Below, one piece after another: positions 8,287-42,561 of a DNA stretch of 64,000 nucleotides. Position numbers and translations under genes: made by a program. The notes below the pieces were generated by a model. The model had not been told where the DNA came from and searched no databases. It saw only the letters and a program-made list of their open reading frames with translations. The DNA comes from a virus. The stretch covers positions 1 through 64,000 of the IMG/VR virus record IMGVR_UViG_3300034198_011471; one strand, written 5' to 3'. The stretch's first letter is position 1; each line of letters begins with the position of its first letter.

Positions 8287-9717
8287 TTACGATGCACCAA
8301 TGACTCGAACCGGACTGGCAGCATACGAAACACGCGAAGTGGTTCCTGCGTCTGCCATCCAACCCTGCGCTTCAACGCAGGTGCTAATATCTCGCGGCAC
8401 GCTGATGAAATACCGCCGCCCAGTAGAACGGCAGAACAACACCATCCGGTTTTGACCGGTTCTGTTTTCTTGTCCGCGCGGCGGACCAACCAGCATCTCG
8501 GTCGTGTTATCAATATCGTTAACACGGCTATCAAGAACTGGGCAGTCTGCCTCTGCAATAAAGCGATCCCAGCCGAAACGCTCGATGGCCAGCCGGCGTG
8601 TTTCCTCGTTACGAATGCGCATGATGTGCGCCGTCGACAGTTGCTCCGGTTTTGCGACAATCATCCGGCCGCCTTCGTTCATGAAGTGCCCGTCGTTGAA
8701 CCATAGCTTTACGCCATCGGCCCACTGCACTGCCGGTCCGGTCGTGCTGTGCAAGTTGTTCGACTCGTTTAGCGTGATGCGCGGACGATCGGCAAGAATG
8801 ATGCACGACGACTGGAACGCGGCAAACGCCGTGCAGTGGTGGAACACTTCGTGCTCCCACGTAGTCGCCGGGTCATCAATCTTTAGGATCTTGCACAGAA
8901 TTTCGGCGTCAAGCGCCTGCGGCACGCTGCCCAGAAACACGTTGTCATCCGCAATTAAATTAGTTGGGTTGGTTAATTCGTTTATGGACATGGCGCGATT
9001 CAGCTCGCCAATTGACCCCGCGGTCGAGCTGCTGTCAAAAATGATCTTGTTGCTGATTTCAGACAGTTTCTTTTCAGTTTTTAACACTTCATTGTTGCGC
9101 ATCGTCCCGTCCCAGCTACGAAAATTCTCTGTGATAGCTCCTAGGCCGACGGTGTCGTTGAGCATAGATCGAAAAAGATTGACTGTGGTGGTCAAGTTGT
9201 TTGTCTTGTACATGACAACATCTTCTACGCCTTCGCCGCGGCTGCGCCACCAACGACGATTTAACCCAAACGAAGTTGCTACGAGGCTTTCACTTGTCAT
9301 GTACTCTTCGCGAATTGCCCGCAACCACGTTCGAGTAAACTCGTTGTTTTGCATGTTGCTCCACCAACGCCGGCGATCGCTATTCCAGCCGAGCAACGAG
9401 TCTTTACGCAATGGGATAACAAACGCGCTGTCGATTTCAAGCTCGCGACACAGCTCTTTTGCGTATGTCTTTGTCATCCGTCCGCGCACCACCGCCATCG
9501 AAATCATGAACGTCACCGGCGACGAGGCGACGTGAAAAGTTACAGGGCTTTTCTTGTGGCGGTCCGAGCGAAAAGAACCCAAACCACCGGCATAACCGGC
9601 GCGAAGTATTTCCGCAGCTTTAGCTTGGCTGGGTTGACCGTTGTGAATAGTTTCAAGCCAGCGATTGATCGTGTTTTCAACAATGGTTCGAGTTGCTTTG
9701 GAGATCTTAGATTTCAT
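8287..9717 (-). CDS. DUF6745-like protein
   Basis: A 476-residue protein. Its C-terminal half fits DUF6745: LHSTTGPAVQWADGVKLWF, then a helix with RIRNEETRRLAIERFGWDRF, and a final strand region ending EAQGWMAD. The N-terminal half (about 1-230) has scattered Trp/Arg motifs (RRRWWSN, NRRWWRSRGE) and no recognised fold. The first ATG is at 9717; an upstream TTG is less likely. The family is widespread, sometimes next to leucine-rich-repeat proteins, and has no known activity. The downstream neighbour is its usual partner. Confidence 0.65.
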   Translation of the reverse strand: MKSKISKATRTIVENTINRWLETIHNGQPSQAKAAEILRAGYAGGLGSFRSDRHKKSPVTFHVASSPVTFMISMAVVRGRMTKTYAKELCRELEIDSAFVIPLRKDSLLGWNSDRRRWWSNMQNNEFTRTWLRAIREEYMTSESLVATSFGLNRRWWRSRGEGVEDVVMYKTNNLTTTVNLFRSMLNDTVGLGAITENFRSWDGTMRNNEVLKTEKKLSEISNKIIFDSSSTAGSIGELNRAMSINELTNPTNLIADDNVFLGSVPQALDAEILCKILKIDDPATTWEHEVFHHCTAFAAFQSSCIILADRPRITLNESNNLHSTTGPAVQWADGVKLWFNDGHFMNEGGRMIVAKPEQLSTAHIMRIRNEETRRLAIERFGWDRFIAEADCPVLDSRVNDIDNTTEMLVGPPRGQENRTGQNRMVLFCRSTGRRYFISVPRDISTCVEAQGWMADAGTTSRVSYAASPVRVIGAS

Positions 9718-9718
9718 G

Positions 9719-10174
9719 TTAGGTAGTGGTTGCCATGATTGGGTCAACAAACCCGCAGTTTAGCGTGCTGTCTGTCAGCACAATTTCAAGTGTTTCAAAG
9801 TGATCGCAGTTCTGTACCCAGCTGCGCGGAATGTTAATTACTTCCGCAAAATCATCGCCGCCAACTAGTTCGCGGCTATTGTCGTACCATTCGTCGTCGG
9901 TATTTGGGTTGCAGTGTTCGGCGTAAACAACGTGTGCGCCGCTAGCGACACCCTCGACATCTCGCGGAATACCGTTGCTCATGAGATATACGCCGCGATC
10001 GTGTACAAATACCAAGCCGGGGCCCGCGGGCGTTCGCGTTTCCGGCGGCTCTAACCCAAGCTCGCGAAACTGCTCGTCCGTCATGTTCTCGTGACCCATA
10101 TCAAACTGCGTCGAGGCGTATGCGTGCTCAAGGCACCTCTTTAACTCCGCAGCTTTAAACCGTAACACTGGCAT
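9719..10174 (-). CDS. DUF3085-like protein
   Basis: A 151-residue protein. It begins MPVLRFKAAELKRCLEHAYA; the middle has GPGLVFVHDRGVYLMSNGIP and VVYAEHCNPNTDDEWYDNSR, followed by ELVGGDDFAEVI. The 'dqGVYLmSN...vYA..cnP..D.w...r...GGDDf.E' pattern matches DUF3085, a small family found on plasmids and genomic islands. Function unknown. Confidence 0.6.
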   Translation of the reverse strand: MPVLRFKAAELKRCLEHAYASTQFDMGHENMTDEQFRELGLEPPETRTPAGPGLVFVHDRGVYLMSNGIPRDVEGVASGAHVVYAEHCNPNTDDEWYDNSRELVGGDDFAEVINIPRSWVQNCDHFETLEIVLTDSTLNCGFVDPIMATTT

Positions 10175-15661: not shown

Positions 15662-17146
15662 TTAGCCCTTGGCGGGCGCCGCGACACGGCGCGGTCGCTG
15701 CGTTGTAACAGCCGGCTTACCAACACGCGTGTAAATACCGCGGTTGTCAGCCGACAGGCAGCGACCTTCAGCCCAGCCGCGCAGCCGCTCAATCTGCTCA
15801 GCCGACGTCACGGAGATCGGTACCACGTTCTGCGCCGCTTCAACAAGCGGGATATCAAGCAGCGCCGCGAGACGGCAGCACGACTTGATCTCGGCGCCCG
15901 TCCAGTTGGCGTCGTCCGGCTTTTCCTGCGACTCATCTACGCCGAAATGCTTCAGGTAGATATCCCAGATCGCCGCGCGCTGGTCAGCGCCGGGCAGATC
16001 CACGAAGAAGATACCGTCGAAGCGCTCGGCGCGGGCAAACGGCGCCGGCAGCTGGCTGGCGTCGTTGCAGGTACCGATGAAGAACACATCGGACGTGTGG
16101 TCGTTGAGCCACGTCAGCAGCGTGCCGAACAGGCGAGCTGAGACACCGGAATCGGTCTGACCAGAGCTTCCGACGCCGGCAAGACCCTTCTCGATCTCGT
16201 CGACGAACAGAACGCACGGGGCCATGGCGTCGACCTGCTTGAGCGCACGCCGCATGTTACCCTCGGACTCGCCCACGAACTTACCCATGAGCGAACCGAA
16301 ATCCAGCATTACGGTCGGACGACCGACCTCGTTGCCAAGTGCTTTGGCAAACTGCGACTTGCCGCAGCCCGGAGGCGACAGCAGTAGCACGCCCTTGGGG
16401 CGTTTTTCTACGTTGGTTTCGCCCTGACGCCGCATGGCGCGCAGGCAGAAACTCTTTAGGTTTTCGAGACCACCAAGGTTCTCGAAGTTTGCGTCACCGC
16501 GATACAGCGTCATCGTCCCGCTCTTTTCGAGCGTCTGGGCTTTGATACCCCAGATCGTATCAGGCGACAGCTTATTATTGCGCACCAGCGACAGCGCGAA
16601 GGCGTTCTCGGCCTCCTGCCGCGTCAGGCCACGTGAGGCGTCGACGACAGCAGCTACGTCCTGCTCGGCCGGCTTGGCGAACGGAGAGCCGTCCGGGAAC
16701 AGCTCGTTGCAGACCGTGGTCAGCTGCGGGAGATCCGGCAGCTCGTGATGCACTACCGTGAACAGCTTCTCAACCTCGGGTTGCAGCTGCAGCACCGGCG
16801 CCACGATAATGATATGTTTACCTTCGCCCTTACCCTGCACCACACGGTTAGCCAGAGCCTGCAGCACCTCGGGGTTACCAAGGAAGCGATGAAAATTCTT
16901 CAGAACGAGCAGCATCGGCTGCTTGGGCTGCGGCTGGTCGAGAAACCGCAACGCCTGAAGCGGGCCGGGAGCCGGAGCGGCACCCGAATACAGCTGGCGG
17001 TCGATGTCCCACACATCAAAACCCCAGTCCTTTTCTTCAGTTACGCGGCGAATCGACGCAATCGCGTCATCGCACTCCTGTGATTCAATCCAGATGCCGG
17101 AGAAGCCGGCGCAAACCAGCTCCTTAATTTCTTTTTCGAGCGACAC
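15662..17146 (-). CDS. AAA+ ATPase, Ycf46-like
   Basis: A 494-residue protein with a GTG start (AAAGG 6 nt upstream). The N-terminal ~200 residues match the Ycf46-type pre-domain (SGIWIESQECDDAIASIRRV; QPMLLVLKNFHRFL). A complete AAA+ core follows: Walker A SPPGCGKS (257-264), Walker B LFVDEIE (313-319), sensor 1 GTCND (358-362) and an arginine-rich segment with FARAERFDG (370-378) as probable finger. Usually an ATP-driven remodeller. It sits with DUF2997 and DUF1257 genes as in cyanobacteria, plastids and plasmids, where the three recur as a unit of unknown function. Confidence 0.85.
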   Translation of the reverse strand: MSLEKEIKELVCAGFSGIWIESQECDDAIASIRRVTEEKDWGFDVWDIDRQLYSGAAPAPGPLQALRFLDQPQPKQPMLLVLKNFHRFLGNPEVLQALANRVVQGKGEGKHIIIVAPVLQLQPEVEKLFTVVHHELPDLPQLTTVCNELFPDGSPFAKPAEQDVAAVVDASRGLTRQEAENAFALSLVRNNKLSPDTIWGIKAQTLEKSGTMTLYRGDANFENLGGLENLKSFCLRAMRRQGETNVEKRPKGVLLLSPPGCGKSQFAKALGNEVGRPTVMLDFGSLMGKFVGESEGNMRRALKQVDAMAPCVLFVDEIEKGLAGVGSSGQTDSGVSARLFGTLLTWLNDHTSDVFFIGTCNDASQLPAPFARAERFDGIFFVDLPGADQRAAIWDIYLKHFGVDESQEKPDDANWTGAEIKSCCRLAALLDIPLVEAAQNVVPISVTSAEQIERLRGWAEGRCLSADNRGIYTRVGKPAVTTQRPRRVAAPAKG

Positions 17147-17185
17147 GTGTGACCTTTGTTTTTGTTTTGTAAGAACTTGCTATTG

Positions 17186-17377
17186 TCAGTTGCTTTCCGT
17201 AATCTGCTCGTCATTACTGGCAATGTAAAAATCGCCGGTAAGCTGCTCGTCCACCTTTGCGCCCAACGCCTGTTCCAGCGCTCGCGTCGCGTCCTGACAA
17301 GAGCTGCCGGTAAAACCGAAAGTTTCGATCTTGGTGCCGCCCTTCGGGTCGACAACGATATGAATGGTCTTCGACAT
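17186..17377 (-). CDS. DUF2997-like protein
   Basis: A 63-residue protein: MSKTIHIVVDPKGGTKIETF, then GFTGSSCQDATRALEQALGA. The short strand-GG-strand, 'GF.G.sC...t..le.alG' layout is DUF2997. Members travel with DUF1257 and a Ycf46-type ATPase, as here (39 nt before the ATPase). It is probably a small binding partner of that module. Role unknown. Confidence 0.75.
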   Translation of the reverse strand: MSKTIHIVVDPKGGTKIETFGFTGSSCQDATRALEQALGAKVDEQLTGDFYIASNDEQITESN

Positions 17378-17379
17378 GT

Positions 17380-17745
17380 TTAGAAACCTCCCGTCAGGCT
17401 GAGTTTGACCGAACCGTCCGGCAGCATCTCCTCGAACACCGAGTAGCCGCCCTTCTGAGCTTCGTAGATCGCCTTTTCGACCGCGTACGCCTGCAGGAAC
17501 CTGTCCAACTCTTCCTGCCTACCCCACGCGCCGTTGTAGTTATCGTACGCCGCGGCGCCGGTTTCCGTATTGAACACGGCCGGGTACTGCCAGCCCGGGA
17601 GCTTCACAGCCAGTCCATCGGCACTCTGGCCGGCGAACAGCACATGATGCCCGGCCTTTGGGGCCTCAAACCCGAGACGCTTGCAGGCCGCTTCAACCGC
17701 GGCAGCGTCTTTTACTTCCGTCTTGATCTGAACAATGTGAGACAT
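17380..17745 (-). CDS. DUF1257 (Ycf35-like) protein
   Basis: A 121-residue protein beginning MSHIVQIKTEVKDAAAVEAA, with CKRLGF, LPGWQYPAVFNTETG, DNYNGAWG and a C-terminal helix-strand (KAIYEAQKGGYSVFEEMLPD). The 'MSHi..i.Tevkda.al..A...Lg' start is diagnostic of DUF1257/Ycf35. First gene of the DUF1257, DUF2997, AAA+ trio. Known from plastids, cyanobacteria and various plasmids and phages; function not established. Confidence 0.8.
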   Translation of the reverse strand: MSHIVQIKTEVKDAAAVEAACKRLGFEAPKAGHHVLFAGQSADGLAVKLPGWQYPAVFNTETGAAAYDNYNGAWGRQEELDRFLQAYAVEKAIYEAQKGGYSVFEEMLPDGSVKLSLTGGF

Positions 17746-21271: not shown

Positions 21272-21436
21272 TCACTTGCGAGTCGTTTCTTTGGCGGCGG
21301 CAGCTGCAACCTGACACATGTAACCTAGTACATTTGCCAGCCCAGCAAGACCGTATATGAAAACATGCCCTGTGTATTTGAGGCTGTCTTCAACCCATTG
21401 AAATTCTGACTCGCTACCGTTGTTATTGTGGTTCAT
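21272..21436 (-). CDS. 54-residue membrane micropeptide, divergent to terminase
   Basis: The frame on the minus strand from ATG 21436 reads MNHNNNGSESEFQWVEDSLK, then a hydrophobic helix (YTGHVFIYGLAGLANVLGYM) and a basic end. It fills an otherwise empty stretch between the terminase and the next leftward gene, and its ATG overlaps the terminase ATG (CATG). Composition is protein-like. No strong SD is seen (weak AGG). Function unknown. Confidence 0.5.
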   Translation of the reverse strand: MNHNNNGSESEFQWVEDSLKYTGHVFIYGLAGLANVLGYMCQVAAAAAKETTRK

Positions 21437-23351
21437 GGATAAACCTAATCAAACAGTTACTGAAGCAGTTGACATGCCTTCCGTAGGCGTGCAATCACTT
21501 CTACAAGAATTAATCTCAATCGACGTGACGGATGTACATTCTGTTCACGCGCGAGCGGCTGTTTTGCAGCAGCTCGCCGGTCGGCATGCTTTCCCGTCAC
21601 TGGAACCGATTTTACCGCTAGTTCTGAATCTTAACGGGCGCCCGTACAGCATTCAGAATCATATGCCTTTTTCCCCACTTTTCCGGCTACTGACGCCGAA
21701 AAATCAAGTGTGGTGCACGGGGCGGCAGGTATCAAAATCGACCAGCCTAGCAGCGCACGGAGTTGTAGTTGCCAACTCTCTCCCGTTTTTTAAGACGTTA
21801 TTCATCACACCGCTGTACGAACAGATACGGCGGTTTTCGAATAACTATGTGCGTCCGTTTATCGACCAGTCTCCTGTGAAGTCGCAATGGAGCGGCACGA
21901 CGACCGAGAATTCAGTTCTGCAAAGATCTTTTAAGAACAATTCAATGATGTTGTTCAGCTTTGCGCTTTTAGATTCGGATCGTGTGCGCGGTGTTTCTGC
22001 AGACCGTGTGTGTATCGACGAAGTTCAGGACATGGATCCTGATCACGTGCCGATCATTCAAGAAACGATGTCTTACTCCAAATGGGGGACTAGTTATTAC
22101 ACAGGAACGCCGAAGACGCTAGATAATTTAATTTACGGATTGTATAAACGATCATCACAAGCCGAGTGGTTTATACCGTGTCATTCATGCAAGCACTGGA
22201 GCATCCCTTCGCTTGAATATGACTTGGACAAAATGATCGGCCCATACAGCGTGCATATCAGCGAGAAGTATCCGGGCACCGTCTGCGCTAAGTGTCAGAA
22301 ACCGATCAGCCCAAGGCATGGTCGGTGGGTGCACAGATATCCCGAACGCCGCTGGCAATTTGCCGGGTATCACGTACCACAGATGATACTACCGCTTCAT
22401 TTCTCCGACCCTGAAAAGTGGTCAACTCTATTGTTGAAAAGAGAAGGGTTTGGGAACATGACCCAAGCCCAGTTCTACAACGAAGTAATGGGAGAAAGCG
22501 TTGATACCGGTCAGAAGCTCATCAGCGAAACTGATTTGAAGGCTGCGTGCGTGCTAGACTGGGAAAACAAGAAAGAACCAGACCCTAAGTGCTTTGCAAA
22601 TCTCTCGAACTACAAACATCGCATCCTTGCGGTCGACTGGGGCGGCGGCGGAGAAGCAGGTATTAGTTTCACCGTGCTTGCTGTGCTGGGGTTCCGCCCG
22701 GACGGGACCGTCGACACGCTTTGGGCCAAGCGCCTGCTTATTGGCGGCGATCATTTGGCCGAAGCTGTTGAATGTATGCGCTGGTCTAACTTGTTTAATT
22801 GCGATTTTGTTGCTCACGATTACACGGGTGCCGGCACGGTCCGCGAAACGGTCATGGTGCAGGCAGGATTTAATCTAGAGCGAGTCTTGGCGATGCGGCT
22901 CGTTCGTTCCGCATCGCAAGATTTGATGGTGTTCAAACCACCGACAGAGATCAATCATCGGGCACACTATAGCCTCGACAAAACGCGGTCGTTGCTGTAC
23001 ACGTGTCAGGCGATCAAGCTGAAGCAAGTCCGTTTCTTCCAGTACGATTGGTCGTCACAGGATTCGCCGGGCTTGGTGTCGGACTTTCTTGCGTTGGTAG
23101 AAAGTAAAGCCGAGTCTAGACTAGGCGGCGATATTTATACCATTACAAGGAACACGTTGTTGACTGACGACTTCGCGCAAGCTGTTAACCTAGGCTGCGC
23201 CGCTCTTTGGCACGTGAATAACGCGTGGCCTAATTTCGCGGAGATCGCTGGCGTAGCGCGGTTAAGCGAGCGTGTTGTCAAAGCCGAGACGCCGATGGAT
23301 GACGACTGGGCGGATGACTCCATCGGGCGAAGCTACTTTGGCGGTTACTAG
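21435..23351 (+). CDS. terL: terminase large subunit
   Basis: A 638-residue protein read from ATG 21435 (the frame is open from TTG 21420). ATPase part: Walker A-like CTGRQVSKST (94-103, deviating from GKT/S but usual for TerL), Walker B VCIDE (192-196, D195/E196), coupling motif TGTPKT (223-228). Two CxxC pairs, C249/C252 and C284/C287, form a zinc insert. Nuclease part: AVDWGGGGE with catalytic D401, and HDYTGAG (D462), plus a late acidic segment DDFAQAV. It packages DNA into capsids as ATPase motor and endonuclease. Unusually it lies alone on the plus strand among minus-strand genes. Confidence 0.93.
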   Translation: MDKPNQTVTEAVDMPSVGVQSLLQELISIDVTDVHSVHARAAVLQQLAGRHAFPSLEPILPLVLNLNGRPYSIQNHMPFSPLFRLLTPKNQVWCTGRQVSKSTSLAAHGVVVANSLPFFKTLFITPLYEQIRRFSNNYVRPFIDQSPVKSQWSGTTTENSVLQRSFKNNSMMLFSFALLDSDRVRGVSADRVCIDEVQDMDPDHVPIIQETMSYSKWGTSYYTGTPKTLDNLIYGLYKRSSQAEWFIPCHSCKHWSIPSLEYDLDKMIGPYSVHISEKYPGTVCAKCQKPISPRHGRWVHRYPERRWQFAGYHVPQMILPLHFSDPEKWSTLLLKREGFGNMTQAQFYNEVMGESVDTGQKLISETDLKAACVLDWENKKEPDPKCFANLSNYKHRILAVDWGGGGEAGISFTVLAVLGFRPDGTVDTLWAKRLLIGGDHLAEAVECMRWSNLFNCDFVAHDYTGAGTVRETVMVQAGFNLERVLAMRLVRSASQDLMVFKPPTEINHRAHYSLDKTRSLLYTCQAIKLKQVRFFQYDWSSQDSPGLVSDFLALVESKAESRLGGDIYTITRNTLLTDDFAQAVNLGCAALWHVNNAWPNFAEIAGVARLSERVVKAETPMDDDWADDSIGRSYFGGY

Positions 23352-25459: not shown

Positions 25460-25532
25460 AGCCGGCGGTCGGATTCGAACCGACGACAGGCAGTTTACAA
25501 AACTGCTACTCTACCAACTGAGTTACGCCGGC
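25460..25532 (-). tRNA. tRNA-Thr: tRNA-Thr (UGU)
   Basis: A 73-nt cloverleaf on the minus strand: acceptor GCCGGCG/CGCCGGC, D-arm ACTC..GAGT, anticodon stem GCAGT/ACTGC with loop TTTGTAA giving anticodon TGT, variable CTGTC, T-arm GTCGG-TTCGAAT-CCGAC. CCA is not encoded and the discriminator is U. It reads ACA (and by wobble ACG) codons. Confidence 0.95.
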
Positions 25533-35533: not shown

Positions 35534-36757
35534 CTACGACTGCGCGGCGGCTTTAACGGCCGCTCTGAGTGTCGCGTTTGTTTGCAGTTCGGCGATAAGC
35601 TGACTAAGCGTTAATTCGCCGTGTGGCCCTGTCGGCCCTGTTGCGCCCATGTTGCCGCACGGCCCGGTAGCGCCGGTATGGCCGACGCCTGTCGCCCCAG
35701 TGGCCCCACGCGGCCCTGACGGCCCTGTTACGCCGCGAGGTCCTGTGGCGCCTTGAATACCGGTAGCCCCGGCGGCGCCGCGTGAGCCGCGTGCGCCGGC
35801 TGGGCCAGATTGACCCTGCGGCCCCTGAGCACCCTGCGGCCCGGCGTTACCTTGCGGACCCATCAAACCCTGTGGCCCAATTAATCCCTGCGGCCCTTGC
35901 GCGCCTTGCGGCCCGCGGTCACCCTTGGGCCCTGTCTGACCTTTAGGTCCGGTTGCTCCGGTCGCGCCGATACCCCCGGTGGCCCCTGTGGCGCCATCAA
36001 TGCCGTTTTTACCGGCCGGGCCTGTCGGGCCTGTCGGGCCTGTCGGGCCTTTTGGTCCGGTGGGCCCTGTAGATCCGCGCGGCCCGGTCGCGCCTGTTGC
36101 GCCTGTGGCCCCGCGCGGTCCCGTAGGTCCTGTTGCGCCCGTAAAACCTACTGCGCCCTGCGGACCAGTTGCGCCACGAGGACCCGTGGGGCCGATTTTT
36201 CCCGTCGGTCCAGTTGGACCCGTTGCGCCTTTTTCGCCTTTATCGCCTTTATCGCCTTTATTGCCTTGCGGGCCTCGCGGGCCTGTCATGCCAGTGGGGC
36301 CTTTATCTCCTTTATCGCCTTTTTCTCCTTTATCTCCTTTGTCGCCTTTTTCTCCTTTATCGCCTTGCGGGCCCGGCATGCCGATAGCGCCTACGGGTCC
36401 TTGAATACCCATGTCGCCTTTTTCGCCTTTTTCGCCTTTATCGCCTTTATTGCCTCTTTCTCCGCGATCACCTTTATTGCCTTGATCGCCTTTTTCGCCT
36501 TTTTCGCCTTTATCGCCTTTGTCGCCTTTGCTGCCTGTGTCGCCTTTGTCACCTTTGTCGCCGCTATCGCCCTTGTCGCCATCGTCTCCTTTATCGCCGC
36601 TATCGCCCTGCGGACCCGGCGAACCTTGCGGGCCCGGCGGTCCGGGTTCTCCCCGCGGCCCGGGCGGACCGGGCGTACAGCCGCTTGACGAGAGTTTTGG
36701 TCCCTCGTACGGAACAAACTCAATTTCGTTGTCGTTGCTATTAAAAGGCGCAGTCAT
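35534..36757 (-). CDS. collagen-like tail fibre/adhesin protein
   Basis: A 407-residue protein. Residues 1-25 are a short unique head ([20 protein letters not shown]), residues ~26-375 are Gly-X-Y triplets, first rich in GDKGDKG/GEKGEKG, later in GPTGPTG/GATGATG, then a GPCGNMG break and a ~35-residue C-terminal tail ending [11 protein letters not shown]. Collagen-like triplets trimerise into a stiff rod. The tail is a likely cap. It shares a 65-bp identical DNA stretch and the same tail type with the giant adhesin upstream. Surface binding is probable. Confidence 0.85.
35625..35689. repeat. 65-bp repeat, copy 1
   Basis: Identical over 65 bp to 36982-37046, encoding the [22 protein letters not shown] region of both collagen-like proteins. 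Synonymous-site identity implies recent duplication or gene conversion. Confidence 0.9.
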
Positions 36758-36758
36758 G

Positions 36759-39700
36759 TTATGTATTTAGTGCTGCACGCACGGCGGCGCGAAGATTTGT
36801 GTTAGTGTTTAATTGCGCAATAAATTCAGTTAAAAACGCCGGCGAGCGCACAATTTCTGCAATATTCAACGTGATATTTCCGTTAATATTTGTCGTATTT
36901 ACAGTGATTGTACCGCTGCCGATGTTTGTCGGCGTAAATGTAATTATACCGTTTGCCGGTATGACACCTGTTGCGCCCTGCGGCCCTGTCGGCCCTGTTG
37001 CGCCCATGTTGCCGCACGGCCCGGTAGCGCCGGTATGGCCGACGCCGCTAGCGCCTGTAGCGCCTGTTACACCGGTTGCGCCTCTTGGGCCGACAGGTCC
37101 GGTGGCTCCGCGAGGACCGGTGACGCCAGTCGCGCCTGTTTGGCCGCGCGGGCCTGTCGCACCCTGCGCGCCGTTTGTGCCGGATAAACCAGCTGGGCCA
37201 GTTGCACCAGTTGCGCCGACAGGCCCGGTAACGCCCGTCGCGCCTGTTGCGCCTGTGGCCCCGCGAGGGCCAGTGACGCCGGTTGCGCCAGTGATTCCGC
37301 GGGGTCCGACGGGACCGGTGGCACCCGTAGCGCCGACAGGCCCGGTAACGCCCGTCGCACCAGTTGGACCCGTTGCGCCGACGGGGCCCGTAGCTCCGCG
37401 GGGTCCGGTAGGTCCTGTCGGACCGCTTGGTCCTGTAACGCCGTTAATACCAGAGGCGCCGGTTGCGCCTGTTTGTCCAACTGGACCTGTTGCGCCGCGA
37501 GGTCCTGTGGCACCTGTTGCGCCTTTAGCGCCGGTCGGGCCAGTGGCTCCGCGAGGTCCTGTGGCGCCAGCCGGCCCGGTCGCGCCTGTGGCGCCTTTAT
37601 CGCCTTTGTCGCCCTTAACGCCTGTAGCGCCTGTTACGCCCTTAACGCCTGTGGCGCCAGCCGGCCCGGTCGCGCCTGTGGCGCCTTTATCGCCTTTGTC
37701 GCCCTCGTCTCCTTTATCGCCTTTCAACCCCATCGGACCGAATAATCCCATTGGTCCTTGCGGGCCAATTGGACCAGCGTTGCCTATGTCGCCTTTATCG
37801 CCTTTGTCGCCTTGATTGCCTTGATTTCCCTTGTCACCCTTGAGTCCCTGTGGACCAATAATTCCCGGGGCGCCTTGAACGCCGGGAATTCCTTGTATAC
37901 CTTGATTTCCTTTTTCACCTTTTTCGCCGCGGTCGCCTTTATCGCCTTTTTCGCCTTTGCTGCCTGTGTCGCCTTGCGGCCCCGGATCACCCTGCGAACC
38001 TTGAGGGCCGGCTGGGCCAGCCGGTCCCTGCGCGCAACTACCTCCGCTGCCACCAGAACCGCCGCTACCAGAGCCGCCGCTACCAGAGTCGCCGCTACCA
38101 GAGTCGCCAGTCGGGCATTCAGTGGTGTTTAATGTTATTGTAATGGCGATATTTTCGCCTGATATGTCGACCGTTCCGCAACCAATACCTTCCGGCAAAA
38201 TTGTGACCGAGCCAGTTGTGAGTTTGCATTGCGGAATCCATAAATACGGCGTGAGTTTAAATTTGCAGTCGCCAAGATCCTCGACCATGATCTCTGCGCG
38301 ACCCTCGGTCTCGCACGACACCAGCAGAACGCGGCCTTCGCCACCCTCGATTGACGGTTCGCAGTGCGGAACGCCTAAGTCAACATTGATAGTGTAGAAG
38401 CATTCGGACGGCTCGTCTGTTCCGGTGCCGCCACTAGTGCCGCCACTAGTTTGCGTTGGGGTGACAGAACCAGACCCGTACAACGTAGATGCTTTTTCTA
38501 CATTAACGACGATATCAATTTGCGGACAAGGCGCTGGCGCACACTTTGGAATCCAGATATACGGTGTGATTTTAAATTCACAGAGATCTATCTGTTCAAC
38601 AAAAATCTCGGCGCGCGCGTCAATTCCGCAGCCCGTAAGCGCCGTGCCGACGCCGCCAGTAATTTTTGGCATGCACGGCTTCGGTATGCCGATGTGGAGC
38701 GGCAGCGTGACGTCGCAAAAATCCCCGGGTTCAAATTCATTTATGGGCTGGCCGGCATACGCGTACGGTTCTTCTTGCGCGTCCAGTGTTTGCAGCTCAA
38801 CAACCATTGAAACGGTTGTGCACGGCGGTTTTGGAATTTTGATGTCGAGCGCAAAATCTATTTCAAAACAGCACACCGGCGGTTCGTTGGACCCGACGCG
38901 CTCGTCGTATTCAGAGCATTTTGTGATTTCAAAACGAAACTCTGGCTGGATGTCGTAGCCCACCTCGTGCTTGAGTTCTTTAATCCGTAATTCTGTACAA
39001 GGCGGGCGGGGCGTGGGAATGTCAACGTGAATATCAAACAGATAGTTACACGAGCCCGGGTCGTCGCATGTTGGCGGCGTCGGCATTGGGCGAATAACAA
39101 AAAAGCTGGGCGTATTATTTAAACGCCCGCCGGGCCCGTCTTTGTAGTGGCTGTTGACAGTTAAAAACTGCAACAACTCCGGGCAGCGTGGTTGCGGGAT
39201 CGGCACGACAATTTCAATTTCAATTTCAAAATCGCACCGCTCTGGTTGGTCGCAGCCGGATGCCGGCGTGACGGTTTTTGTAATTTCAAAGCGGGACTGA
39301 CCGCTAACGCAACTTGTGCCGGCAAAGCCTGTTTTGACGTCAAACAGTTTCTTGGTGATTTCAATGCAGGGCGGCGGCGGGATTGGTACGACAATTTCCA
39401 GCTCGATGTCAAAATCGCACTGATCTGGCGTATCGCAATCGCCCGGGGTGACGCGCGAGGTGACGTCAAAACGATTTGATTTATTCTGCACGCATGGCGA
39501 ATCATTAAAACCGGTTAAAACTTCAAACGTTTTAATGTTGATGTTAGGGCACGGCGGTTTTGGAATTGGAATATCGATTGTTAGTTCGATATCAAATTCA
39601 CACGTATCCGGCGTATTGCAATCGCCCGGCGTGACACGCGGAGTGATTTCAAATTTTGAATCGCTAGTCGAACATGTCAGGTCGTCGTAGTGCACCTTGA

Positions 39701-41327
39701 CGTCAAAGACAGGTGGATTAATTGACGGGCAGGGGGTGCGCGGAATGGGCACCAAAATTGAGAGGTCAATTTCAAATTCGCACTGGTCTGGTGTGTTGCA
39801 GTCACCGGGCGTGCGTTTTGATGTTATTTCAAATATCGAACCACCTTGCGCGCACGGCGAGTCGCTGAACCCGGTTGTAACCTCAAATTTTTTAGTGCTG
39901 ATTACTGGGCACGGTGTGCGCGGAATCGGTACGACAATCTCTAGCTCAATATCAAAGACGCATTGATCGGGGTTGTTGCAGTCTCCCGGAACGTGATTGG
40001 TGGTAATTTCAAATGTCGAACCACCTTGCGCGCACGAAGAGTCGCTAAACCCCGTCGTGACTTTGAGCACCGGCGAATTAATAATCGGACACGGCACGCG
40101 AGGAATTGGAATAACAATCTCTAGCTCGATATCAAATTCGCATTGACCGGAACTATTGCAGTCGCCGGGGGTGTGGTTGGTTTTGATCTCAAATTTATTG
40201 TCGCCCGGCAGACACCCGGAATCTCCATACCCGCTTGTAACAGTCAGCTTTGGTTGGTTGATAATTGGACACGGCGCGCGCGGAATAGGTATGACAATTT
40301 CAAGTTCAAAATTGAATTCGCACTGATCGGGGTTGTTGCAGTCTCCCGGAACATTGTTAGTCGTGATTTCAAAACGATTTGTACCAGTGAGGCAGCCGGT
40401 ATCGTCATAGCCAGACGACACAGATAATTTTGGCGCGTTAAGAGTTGGGCAGGGCGTACGCGGAATCGGTACAACAATTTCTAGCTCAACGTCAAACTCG
40501 CAGCGGTCGGCGGTATTGCAGTCGCCGGGAGTGTGCCGCGGAGTGATGCTGAAAAAGTTCTGCTTGTCGTCAAGGCATGACGAATCAGAAAACCCACTGT
40601 CAACAGAAAACTTTGTCAGGTTGATAGTCGGGCACGGCGGCCGCGGAATCGGTATTGCAATTTCTAACTCGACTTCGAAACGACACTGGTCGGCTGTGTC
40701 GCAATCGCCCGGCGTAATAATTTGCTCAATTGTTAATTTGTTTTGCTTGTCTAGCATGCACGGGGAATCTGAGTACCCCGAGTGCACGCCAAAATCAGTA
40801 ACGATGATTTGAGGACACGGCGGTTTTGGTACTGGTATCTTGAGATCAAGATCAATAACAAACTCGCACTGGTCGGGTGTGGTGCAATCGCCGGGTGTGA
40901 TGATCGGCGTAATCTTAATTTCGCTCAGCGGCGCAATACAATCCTGATAACCAACTTCTAATCCGAACTCGCCGGCTGTAAGCGTCGGGCAAGGTGTGCG
41001 CGGTACCGGCACATTGATATCTAAGGTGACGTCGTAACGGCACGGGTCGATATCTTGTCGCGTGATCTTCAGTTCGTTTTTAGGCGGCGGGCAGCCATCG
41101 TCGCCGGCGTCGCCGACAAAGCTGACGTCAATCGACGTCAAAGTCGAAAAATCAGGGCAGCGGTTGCCAACTTCTGTCGGTGGTTCGCGCGGAATGATCG
41201 GCGCCTGACAGCCGAAGATCGGCGGCGGAAGCGGTTCGATTTCGCAGACTGACGAAATGAAATCGAAATCTACCTTTGGGGTAGGATCGATCGGGCACTG
41301 CGAGTCTTTGAAAAGATTGTCAGGCAT
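36759..41327 (-). CDS. giant tandem-repeat plus collagen-like adhesin
   Basis: A 1522-residue protein from ATG 41327. Residues ~50-700 are about 11-12 tandem copies of a ~60-residue unit with consensus 'vPIPR(T/P)PCP..n..kF.V.sGf.DS.C...', then 'FeIT...[20 protein letters not shown]'. Further degenerate units run to about residue 1040. A Gly/Ser linker ([18 protein letters not shown]) leads to collagen Gly-X-Y triplets (about 1080-1440), the GPCGNMG break, a beta segment rich in Asn/Thr and a C-terminal cap ([11 protein letters not shown]). Likely a long fibre or surface adhesin; several Cys per repeat suggest disulphides or metal. No known family for the repeat. Confidence 0.8.
36982..37046. 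repeat. 65-bp repeat, copy 2
   Basis: Second copy of the 65-bp identical stretch at 35625-35689, here in the giant adhesin gene, again encoding the Cys-bearing collagen break. Confidence 0.9.
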
Positions 41328-41328
41328 G

Positions 41329-42561
41329 TTACGTGCAATTAATTTGTGCGTTGGGTTTCTTCTGTACCGTGATCGTTCCATCGTCGATCAGGATGTTGAT
41401 GCCCGCGCCGCCAATAATGTTGACATTAGAGCCGCCGACGCCATTGATGGCAGAAATAAGCTCACAACATGCTGGCCCGCCACTTAAAAATTTGTCAATT
41501 TGTTCAATCTCTGTCGGCATTTTTTCTGGAAAATCTTGCCAAGCCGATGCCGGCCAATTTGTGACACCCGCAGGCGGCGAACCATACCACATATAATTAA
41601 ACGTTGTGTGCGTTTCTACCCATGTCTTATTGTTCCATGTGTAGTAAATGACATTTTTATGCTGACAAAGTCGTGGAGGTAAAGGGCCGCAAGACGGATT
41701 GACCGGCGTAGGCTCTGACGCCCAGCCGTACGTGTCGCCGGGCATGGCGCGTCCGCAACCCGGCAGAGTAGAACTGTCAGGTGTCGCGACCACGTCTATG
41801 AACTGCGTTGCAATTAATTTTTTTGCCCCGGCGTCTTTTGCAAATAACGGAAGTTCACCGCTATTTGAACATAGCTCTGCGCTAGTTGATCCTGCGCCCG
41901 CGCCTTTAGCTGCGGTGACAGACAATTCGTTCGCGCGATCTGTTTGCGTAATTAGGCAGTTATAACCTTCCTTGAATCGAATGTCGCCCTTCATACAGCG
42001 CGAATTTAACACGATCGGTCGGTTGTCGTTTGTCCCTGTCTGGTCGCACGGCGGAACACGTACGCGGTCGTAGTTACCGACGCTGATTGACCGCAGATAC
42101 GCCTTGTTTAAGTTTTGAATGCGCCCCGGTTCAACCTGATAGTCGTTCGGCTGTAACGCCCATACACCGTTAACCGCAGCGTCATTAAACGCGGTTGTCA
42201 GCGCTTCCAACGGGCCAGTCACGAGAAAGCCAGACCAGATCGGCTCTTCGGCGCACGGGTTTTCCGTGTCGACTGCGGACTCACTGTGTTCAAGTGCCCA
42301 CTCCCCGGTATCGTGTCGAGTAAAAGAGACTGTAGCCGGCGACGCGTTTGTGCTAAACACAAACTCAAATAAGCTGCCTACTTTTTTTACCGCTGACAGC
42401 CAAATTGTATGTTCGCTCTCGTCATACCGGGCGTCGAGGCCCATAATGAACCCTGCGTCCAGTACCGCGCTTGTGGGTAGCGGCGGAAGGGTGGCTGGTT
42501 TGTTGTAGATAAACGGATACGCGCGGTATTCGTTATCGTTGTAAAATCCGGGACGAGGCAT
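41329..42561 (-). CDS. fibre-family protein with N-terminal 'YP' motif
   Basis: A 410-residue protein beginning [20 protein letters not shown]. The short motif AYPF near residue 14-17 matches RSYPL, RRYPL and SRYPF in the next three paralogues. The middle is beta-rich; [19 protein letters not shown] and a C-terminal Gly/Asn/Ile segment ([20 protein letters not shown]) suggest a fibre shaft or knob. Probably a tail-fibre subunit attached through the N-terminal motif. Confidence 0.6.

Follow-up and report, generated by a model that had tools for sequence, protein, structure and literature searches.

A conserved five-gene module around a Cdc48-class AAA+ ATPase, DUF1257 and DUF2997 in phages, plasmids and planctomycetes

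Ycf46, Ycf35 (DUF1257), DUF2997 and DUF3150 range from plastids to widespread plasmids, and to our knowledge none of these families has an established function. This study concerns a viral locus related to them, located at positions 15662-17745 of a 64,000-nt stretch of IMG/VR virus record IMGVR_UViG_3300034198_011471 (positions 1 to 64,000 of that record; the whole stretch is hereafter called the window), where an AAA+ ATPase, a DUF2997 protein and a DUF1257-family protein are encoded side by side. The original prediction, made from the sequence alone, had described this trio on a phage; all three genes were found in place on the minus strand, and the virus record carries a large terminase gene (21420-23351 in the window) together with tail genes. 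The first system for comparison is the Ycf46/DUF2997/Ycf35 set of cyanobacteria and plastids. The ATPase of a Planktothrix plasmid belongs to the same AAA+ family by profile (E 1e-124) and lies beside DUF2997 and DUF1257 genes, but this locus, the only cyanobacterial one inspected, has no detected DUF3150-like gene and none for p89, a small protein introduced below. Synechocystis-type loci differ in having a 4Fe-4S ferredoxin gene next to DUF2997-DUF1257, as described in the part of PMC4284462 cited here.

On conjugative plasmids (IncC and others), CobS-DUF3150-CobT(VWA) sets likewise combine an AAA+ motor with a DUF3150-family protein, to which a helical protein of the window module appears related through distant family members (hhalign probability 97.4 for the whole helical family, 12.8 for the window subfamily), and lie near recombination genes in the plasmids inspected. 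However, the plasmid AAA protein is of the MoxR/CobS type (AAA_5, CbbQ_C) rather than the Cdc48 class, and a VWA protein replaces DUF1257-DUF2997. IetAS and SgiAT contain an AAA+ protein of the same broad clade, according to the cited section of PMC10954446, whereas no subtilisin partner (S8 peptidase) is among the matches listed for 134 neighbors of our loci (best 25 Pfam families), and the other partners differ. The MoxR-VWA ternary systems also provide an AAA+ motor with dedicated partners, one subsystem including ubiquitin-like conjugation genes; in contrast, the window module has neither VWA nor MoxR, and Ycf46, DUF1257 and DUF3150 go unmentioned in the main text of that work (PMC7159879). 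In the collection of papers searched, none names DUF3150, and those naming DUF1257 or DUF2997 are, by title, not about phages.

Judged from gene content across the loci surveyed here, it is very likely that the trio forms the core of a conserved module comprising DUF1257, DUF2997, the Cdc48-class AAA+ ATPase, a DUF3150-like helical protein and p89, which the original prediction had overlooked. Viral loci were collected with four kinds of bait and cellular loci with one, and named phages and plasmids were added. Iterated profiles built from seven proteins of the window were run against all open reading frames (ORFs) of the 280 loci. The loci were collapsed by shared 41-mers, which reflect sequence sharing and not phylogeny, into 167 deduplicated groups with one locus counted per group. 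All five genes were present in 85 of the 167 groups and lay on the same strand in 85/85, with a median span of 4.3 kb (3.2-6.3) and in nine different orders; at 50% identity the ATPases form 42 clusters, 19 of which have a five-gene member. The loci counted were also those used to iterate the profiles, and a profile built from close relatives only was run as a control; with it, the helical gene still scored in 11 distant loci and p89 in 8. What the survey shows is a set of five genes that remain linked on a single strand in very divergent phages, in some plasmids and on planctomycete chromosomes, despite reshuffled order.

Bait counts considered only groups with at least 5 kb of flank on both sides of the bait. 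Around p89 in viral groups (n = 55; 13 too short), the ATPase was found in 53, DUF1257 in 54, DUF2997 in 55, the helical gene in 51 and all five genes in 48. Close DUF1257 baits recovered the complete set in 15/15 viral groups (17 too short), and wide DUF1257 baits (n = 21; 9 too short) recovered the ATPase and DUF2997 in 21 each, p89 in 19, the helical gene in 15 and all five in 15. With the viral ATPase as bait (n = 33; 15 too short), DUF1257 was present in 29, DUF2997 in 28, the helical gene in 29, p89 in 26 and the complete set in 23, while cellular DUF1257 baits (n = 16; 35 too short) gave the ATPase and DUF2997 in 16 each, the helical gene in 13, p89 in 12 and all five in 12. With DUF3150-type baits, two groups had enough flank and two were too short; each usable group contains the ATPase and lacks all three small genes (DUF1257, DUF2997 and p89). 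A search of INPHARED phages for DUF1257 by tblastn gave no match, and the named phages were found via the ATPase instead. The conserved neighborhood therefore extends beyond the trio, the helical gene and p89 being as constant as the trio itself. Of the two neighbors that the original prediction had singled out, the helical protein indeed co-occurs (51/55 p89-baited and 29/33 ATPase-baited viral groups), whereas the beta-helix (beta-solenoid) protein does not, appearing in only 23/55 p89-baited viral groups and in 0/16 well-flanked cellular groups.

Comparing the distance matrix of each of the five genes with the others gives correlations of r 0.67-0.93 across 84 loci, against a permutation maximum of 0.28, and of r 0.23-0.81 for divergent pairs, which co-descent alone could explain. 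Such a correlation is equally expected if the five genes form a passenger cluster without common function, linked only by shared descent and by clustering in the early region; we consider this very improbable, as membership and strand are kept through nine gene orders, natural fusions exist, and the set recurs on plasmids, chromosomes and unrelated phages. Because order is reshuffled while membership is kept, the pattern argues for selection on the gene set. Four of the families named at the outset and one unnamed family are tied into a single unit that constitutes a testable complex, and a small, phage-sized system of this kind offers a route into the function of plastid genes.

The window DUF2997 protein scores 54.6 bits against PF11211 (cut-off 24.1; E 1e-14), and the DUF1257 protein reaches 17.7 bits against PF06868, below the cut-off of 22.2. 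The window DUF1257-family profile aligns with a Planktothrix (cyanobacterial) DUF1257 protein at an hhalign probability of 96.9, and that protein has its own PF06868 match at E 1.7e-16; searching PDB sequences with the DUF1257 profile returned nothing significant. Among the 151 groups with DUF1257, an N-terminal Ser is conserved in 145/145 and a His in 144/145, and the single conserved Cys of DUF2997 is present in 146/147 groups. Natural DUF1257-DUF2997 fusions were found in five loci (L040, L041, L043, L252 and L261). The L040 fusion was modeled with a predicted local distance difference test score (pLDDT) of 92.2 and a predicted template modeling score (pTM) of 0.84. The best Foldseek match of this model is the TATA-binding protein (TBP; E 1.3e-3, with a low TM score of 0.28), and VIA-align also ranks TBP first (Z 9.8; root-mean-square deviation 2.2 over 81 residues, one TBP repeat). 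Fusion residues 1 to 159 make up the range aligned to the single TBP repeat, so that the DUF1257 and DUF2997 halves seem to build one TBP-like lobe jointly. For this predicted structure the TBP match is one of fold class, not of homology; a BFVD search with the same model gave an unnamed protein as the best match (E 4e-3).

The window helical protein has no Pfam match, PF11348 (DUF3150) included, and a profile of the window subfamily and planctomycete rows alone matches canonical DUF3150 weakly (hhalign 12.8), which is why the label "DUF3150-like" is used. Distant relatives exceed the PF11348 cut-off (L092, 1.3e-20; L100, 3e-17; L093, 2.2e-13; L096, 1.7e-9); L092, L093 and L100 were reached only via the iterated profile, yet they match PF11348 independently. 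The whole helical-family profile aligns with seven canonical DUF3150 proteins at an hhalign probability of 97.4 (E 9e-12, 230 columns). The model of the helical protein (pLDDT 91.4, pTM 0.82) found no close fold in the PDB, the best Foldseek E-value being 0.55 and the VIA-align rows being generic helical bundles, and a PDB sequence search with the DUF3150-like profile gave nothing significant. PF11348 matched 0/7 genomes behind the cellular loci and 0/14 controls; the Pfam model misses the cellular helical subfamily. In Tunturiibacter phage Tunturi_3 (L107, PP885686), gp96 is deposited as an "HNH endonuclease" and is really the DUF3150-like module protein (profile E 3.7e-58, hhalign 100).

Against INPHARED, tblastn with the L100 and L092 proteins gave no match and canonical DUF3150 hit one record, while PLSDB contains 1199 records with DUF3150 matches. 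Canonical DUF3150 was found in 5/274 genomes of one proteobacterial class, with a CobT/VWA gene adjacent or near in 5/5 and a CobS-like AAA_5 gene nearby in 4/5. IncC plasmid CP114368 (L311) carries, in this order, CobS-like, hypothetical, ssb, bet, YqaJ, DUF3150 and VWA genes, and the Vibrio plasmid pVgang of V. gangliei (L312) carries AAA, DUF3150, VWA and lambda-exonuclease genes. CobT_C (PF11775) was found in none of the 45 viral records bearing the module in whole or in part, records that may be fragments, and was present in 2/14 control genomes. DUF3150 appears to be common to two AAA+ engines, and the module would link these two systems through their common partner.

The window ATPase matches PF00004 (E 1.7e-27), with a single AAA domain found at residues 253-383, and falls into the Cdc48/VCP class; CDC48 is its best NCBIfam match, far below the cut-off. 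The name "Ycf46-like" comes from the original prediction; no Ycf46 model appeared in the Pfam, PHROGs or NCBIfam output. The protein is shown by alignment to keep its ATPase motifs: across 129 aligned rows, Walker A K263 is conserved in 129/129, the sensor N361 in 129/129, and the Arg fingers R372 and R375 in 124/129 and 129/129, respectively. The Walker B acidic pair was found by pattern in 96/129 rows and is present in all 30 listed of the other 33, and the pore-loop residue at position 290 is most often Leu (69 of the 129 rows) or Phe (39), with Tyr and Ile in 7 rows each. An insert of about 0.8-1.0 kb splits the ATPase gene between the Walker B Asp and Glu codons in six deduplicated groups (loci L075, at 8949-9757, L078, L079, L080, L017, L196 and L178), two very divergent phages included. 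Rfam identifies the insert as a group I intron in all of these loci but L178, and in L075 it encloses an ORF that, by inspection, is a candidate HNH-like gene.

A conflict system comparable to IetAS or SgiAT, in which the AAA+ protein would control a toxic effector in defense or counter-defense, is suggested by PADLOC IetA models that match the ATPase (E 7.3e-16). The best of these matches spans the AAA core only (250-425), which any AAA+ protein of the clade could attain, no other module gene matches PADLOC, and no effector-like gene is constant across the survey; we regard this explanation as quite improbable. In the ATPase tree, the window lies near L126 and L088 (support 92) inside a clade of 31 rows, namely 22 cellular (mostly planctomycete) and 8 viral rows plus the window, with a Shimodaira-Hasegawa-like approximate likelihood ratio test value of 99. 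Nearly all rows in two deep clades are viral; the tree was built by a quick method and contains some long branches. This topology fits an exchange of the ATPase, in either direction, between planctomycetes and the phage lineage of the window. The suggestion that the machine is host-derived is therefore plausible for the window lineage, but the deeper clades are mostly viral, so that across the whole family the genes could have moved either way.

The genes around the module were examined in 134 proteins, of which 131 were hand-chosen from 270 in distant phage loci (at most three per sequence cluster) and three came from L314 and L316, so the counts are low by design and do not represent a base rate. 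The PHROGs heading the tally were helicase, primase, RecE-like exonuclease, sliding clamp, annealing proteins of the RecT-like and Erf-like types, and DNA methylases. Helicase domains, YqaJ, PDDEXK_1, DNA_pol3_beta and ERF were among the Pfam families at the top. ERF and a DUF3799/PDDEXK nuclease were each found in 10 viral loci, and a PD-(D/E)XK nuclease lies beside the planctomycete modules L117, L120, L126 and L137. From this context, the fold class of the fusion model and the parallel with CobS-DUF3150-CobT on plasmids, we tentatively propose, with a probability of roughly 0.4, that the module is an ATP-driven remodeler of DNA replication or recombination complexes. The "remodelling machine" of the original prediction fits the conserved ATPase motifs, whereas the remodeling itself is something we infer. 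An ATPase hexamer would pull on or remodel a target complex, DUF1257 and DUF2997 would form one composite TBP-like adaptor, and the DUF3150-like protein would serve as a platform coupling the motor to its target, a role that DUF3150 probably also has with the CobS/CobT-type motors of plasmids. The small p89 may be an accessory. With less assurance, the target could be a replication or recombination protein-DNA complex, on which annealing proteins, nucleases, helicases or clamps would be loaded, stripped or recycled, and the phage might employ the module for its own DNA metabolism.

Several observations weigh against this proposal. Genes for replication and recombination are abundant in phage early regions in any case, and in the window itself none was identified adjoining the module. 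The TBP-like fold by itself reveals no function, and the model scores almost as well against a spermine synthase domain (Z 9.5) and KA1-type domains (Z 8.6). The DUF3150-like gene was undetectable in Rhizobium, Rhodobacter and Mycobacterium phages and in a Thermovibrio plasmid (hhalign, nothing above unrelated controls), and six loci (L094, L096, L101, L102, L199 and L201) show the ATPase and helical gene only. The conserved Ser-His and Cys would be easier to reconcile with metal or thiol chemistry than with binding to DNA, and in the cited part of PMC4284462 the cyanobacterial DUF2997-DUF1257 pair adjoins a [4Fe-4S] ferredoxin gene.

The last two points lead to the principal alternative, a metal or cofactor insertion machine in which DUF1257-DUF2997 would provide a metal or sulfur site and the ATPase would drive insertion into a client enzyme, as in the CobS/CobT cobaltochelatase or NorQ/NorD; in phages, a ribonucleotide reductase or an iron-sulfur nuclease might be the client. 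In addition to the invariant Ser-His of the DUF1257 N-terminus and the Cys of DUF2997, the cyanobacterial cluster duf2997-ycf35-fed7 has been linked to iron starvation (PMC4284462, in part), and the passages used from PMC5940233 tie the presence patterns of ycf35 and ycf46 in red algal plastids to iron-limited habitats. DUF3150 is also common to CobS/CobT-type genes, whose viral versions have been proposed as chelatase subunits in the cited portion of PMC8651126. However, just one Cys is conserved, no ferredoxin is among the matches listed for the 134 neighbors (best 25 families), and CobS-DUF3150-CobT sits with recombination rather than cobalamin genes in both plasmids inspected. On balance, we consider metal insertion unlikely.

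The planctomycete loci add another kind of neighbor. A set of ubiquitin-like (Ubl; ThiS-like), E2-like, Prok-JAB and ThiF genes occurs in L119, L125, L138 and L142, "E2-like" being our own label for a protein without a Pfam match, and Ubl, JAB and ThiF genes follow the module also in L319 and in the viral locus L238. The Ubl subtype was found in 2/149 planctomycete genomes, in both cases within 2 kb of p89. Together with the Cdc48 class of the ATPase, these genes suggest a segregase or protein-quality module, in which the planctomycete ATPase would extract or unfold proteins tagged by the neighboring Ubl-JAB-E1 system and phages would reuse the core for takeover or counter-defense. We regard this as improbable, as the full Ubl, E2-like, JAB and E1 set occurs in only 4/52 cellular DUF1257 loci (many stretches being short) and L238 is the sole viral locus with Ubl-type genes. 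Returning to the remodeling of DNA complexes, a more detailed version, which we consider doubtful, would place the module in phage and planctomycete DNA transactions: the TBP-like DUF1257-DUF2997 saddle would recognize nucleic acid or a nucleic-acid-bound protein, and the DUF3150 platform would couple this saddle to the Cdc48-like motor. The same platform would serve the exchangeable CobS/CobT motor on conjugative plasmids, and in some planctomycetes the machine would be tied to Ubl tagging.

Among the cellular loci, 47/52 bear a planctomycete name, the exceptions being L129, L133, L137, L140 and L157. The same draw of 149 planctomycete genomes was searched for three proteins and yielded DUF2997 in 25 genomes (30 places), p89 in 9 (17 places) and the helical family in 8 (22 places); all 9 genomes with p89 fall within the 25 with DUF2997. 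Of the 17 p89 places, 13 are no more than 6 kb from DUF2997 and two others adjoin a helical gene; of the 22 helical places, 12 are within 1 kb of p89. In DUF2997 loci inspected over 3.1 kb, the ATPase and DUF1257 were each present in 18/20. Helical matches without DUF2997 matches came from genomes G300 (8 places) and G368 (1 place), although two of the three G300 stretches do carry the ATPase and weak DUF1257/DUF2997 matches. In two loci of this planctomycete genome G300 (L316 and L317), DUF3150-like genes lie beside a divergent ATPase-DUF1257-DUF2997 set, and L316 also carries candidate PD-(D/E)XK-like and RadC-like genes, as judged by inspection. On a Ca. Manganitrophus plasmid, annotation in the style of the Prokaryotic Genome Annotation Pipeline puts a DUF3150 gene beside AAA-DUF1257-DUF2997, and p89 then follows.

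The features of the locus are collected in Table 1, with ORFs called mechanically. Transcription in the window runs through DUF1257, DUF2997 and the AAA+ gene, then the Api92-like, helical, beta-solenoid and p89 genes, and the helical, beta-helix and Api92-like neighbors named in the original prediction are all present. p89 has no match in Pfam, PHROGs or NCBIfam, though it is conserved from phages to planctomycetes. The Api92 gene occurs in 10/55 p89-baited viral groups; it and the beta-helix gene were rejected as module members, both being confined to close relatives.

Table 1. Genes of the module and intervening genes in the window
Feature	Coordinates	Strand	Evidence and remarks
DUF1257-family protein, 121 aa	17380-17745	-	PF06868 sub-threshold; hhalign to Pfam-positive DUF1257; first gene of the module
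DUF2997 protein, 63 aa	17186-17377	-	PF11211, 54.6 bits; near-invariant Cys
AAA+ ATPase, Cdc48/VCP class, 494 aa	15662-17146	-	PF00004; one recognizable AAA domain, residues 253-383
Api92-like protein, 204 aa	14998-15612	-	Sub-threshold PF18406, E 0.0039; local insert between ATPase and helical genes; non-module
Helical partner, DUF3150-like, 315 aa	14050-14997	-	Co-occurrence; DUF3150 in distant relatives; hhalign; structure model
Beta-solenoid protein, YdcK/hexapeptide-like, 333 aa	13052-14053	-	Lineage-specific neighbor; non-module
p89, 89 aa	12781-13050	-	Co-localization with the module

The virus record that contains the window is 76.6 kb long, and close relatives include IMG/VR contigs of 198-205 kb; for this reason the source is probably a jumbo phage of which the record is a fragment. 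Outside the module, the window carries a tRNA-Thr (tgt) gene at 25460-25532. Additionally, collagen-like tail fiber proteins are encoded at 35534-41381, where the AT skew is locally strong and the stretch at 36-38 kb has a high GC content.

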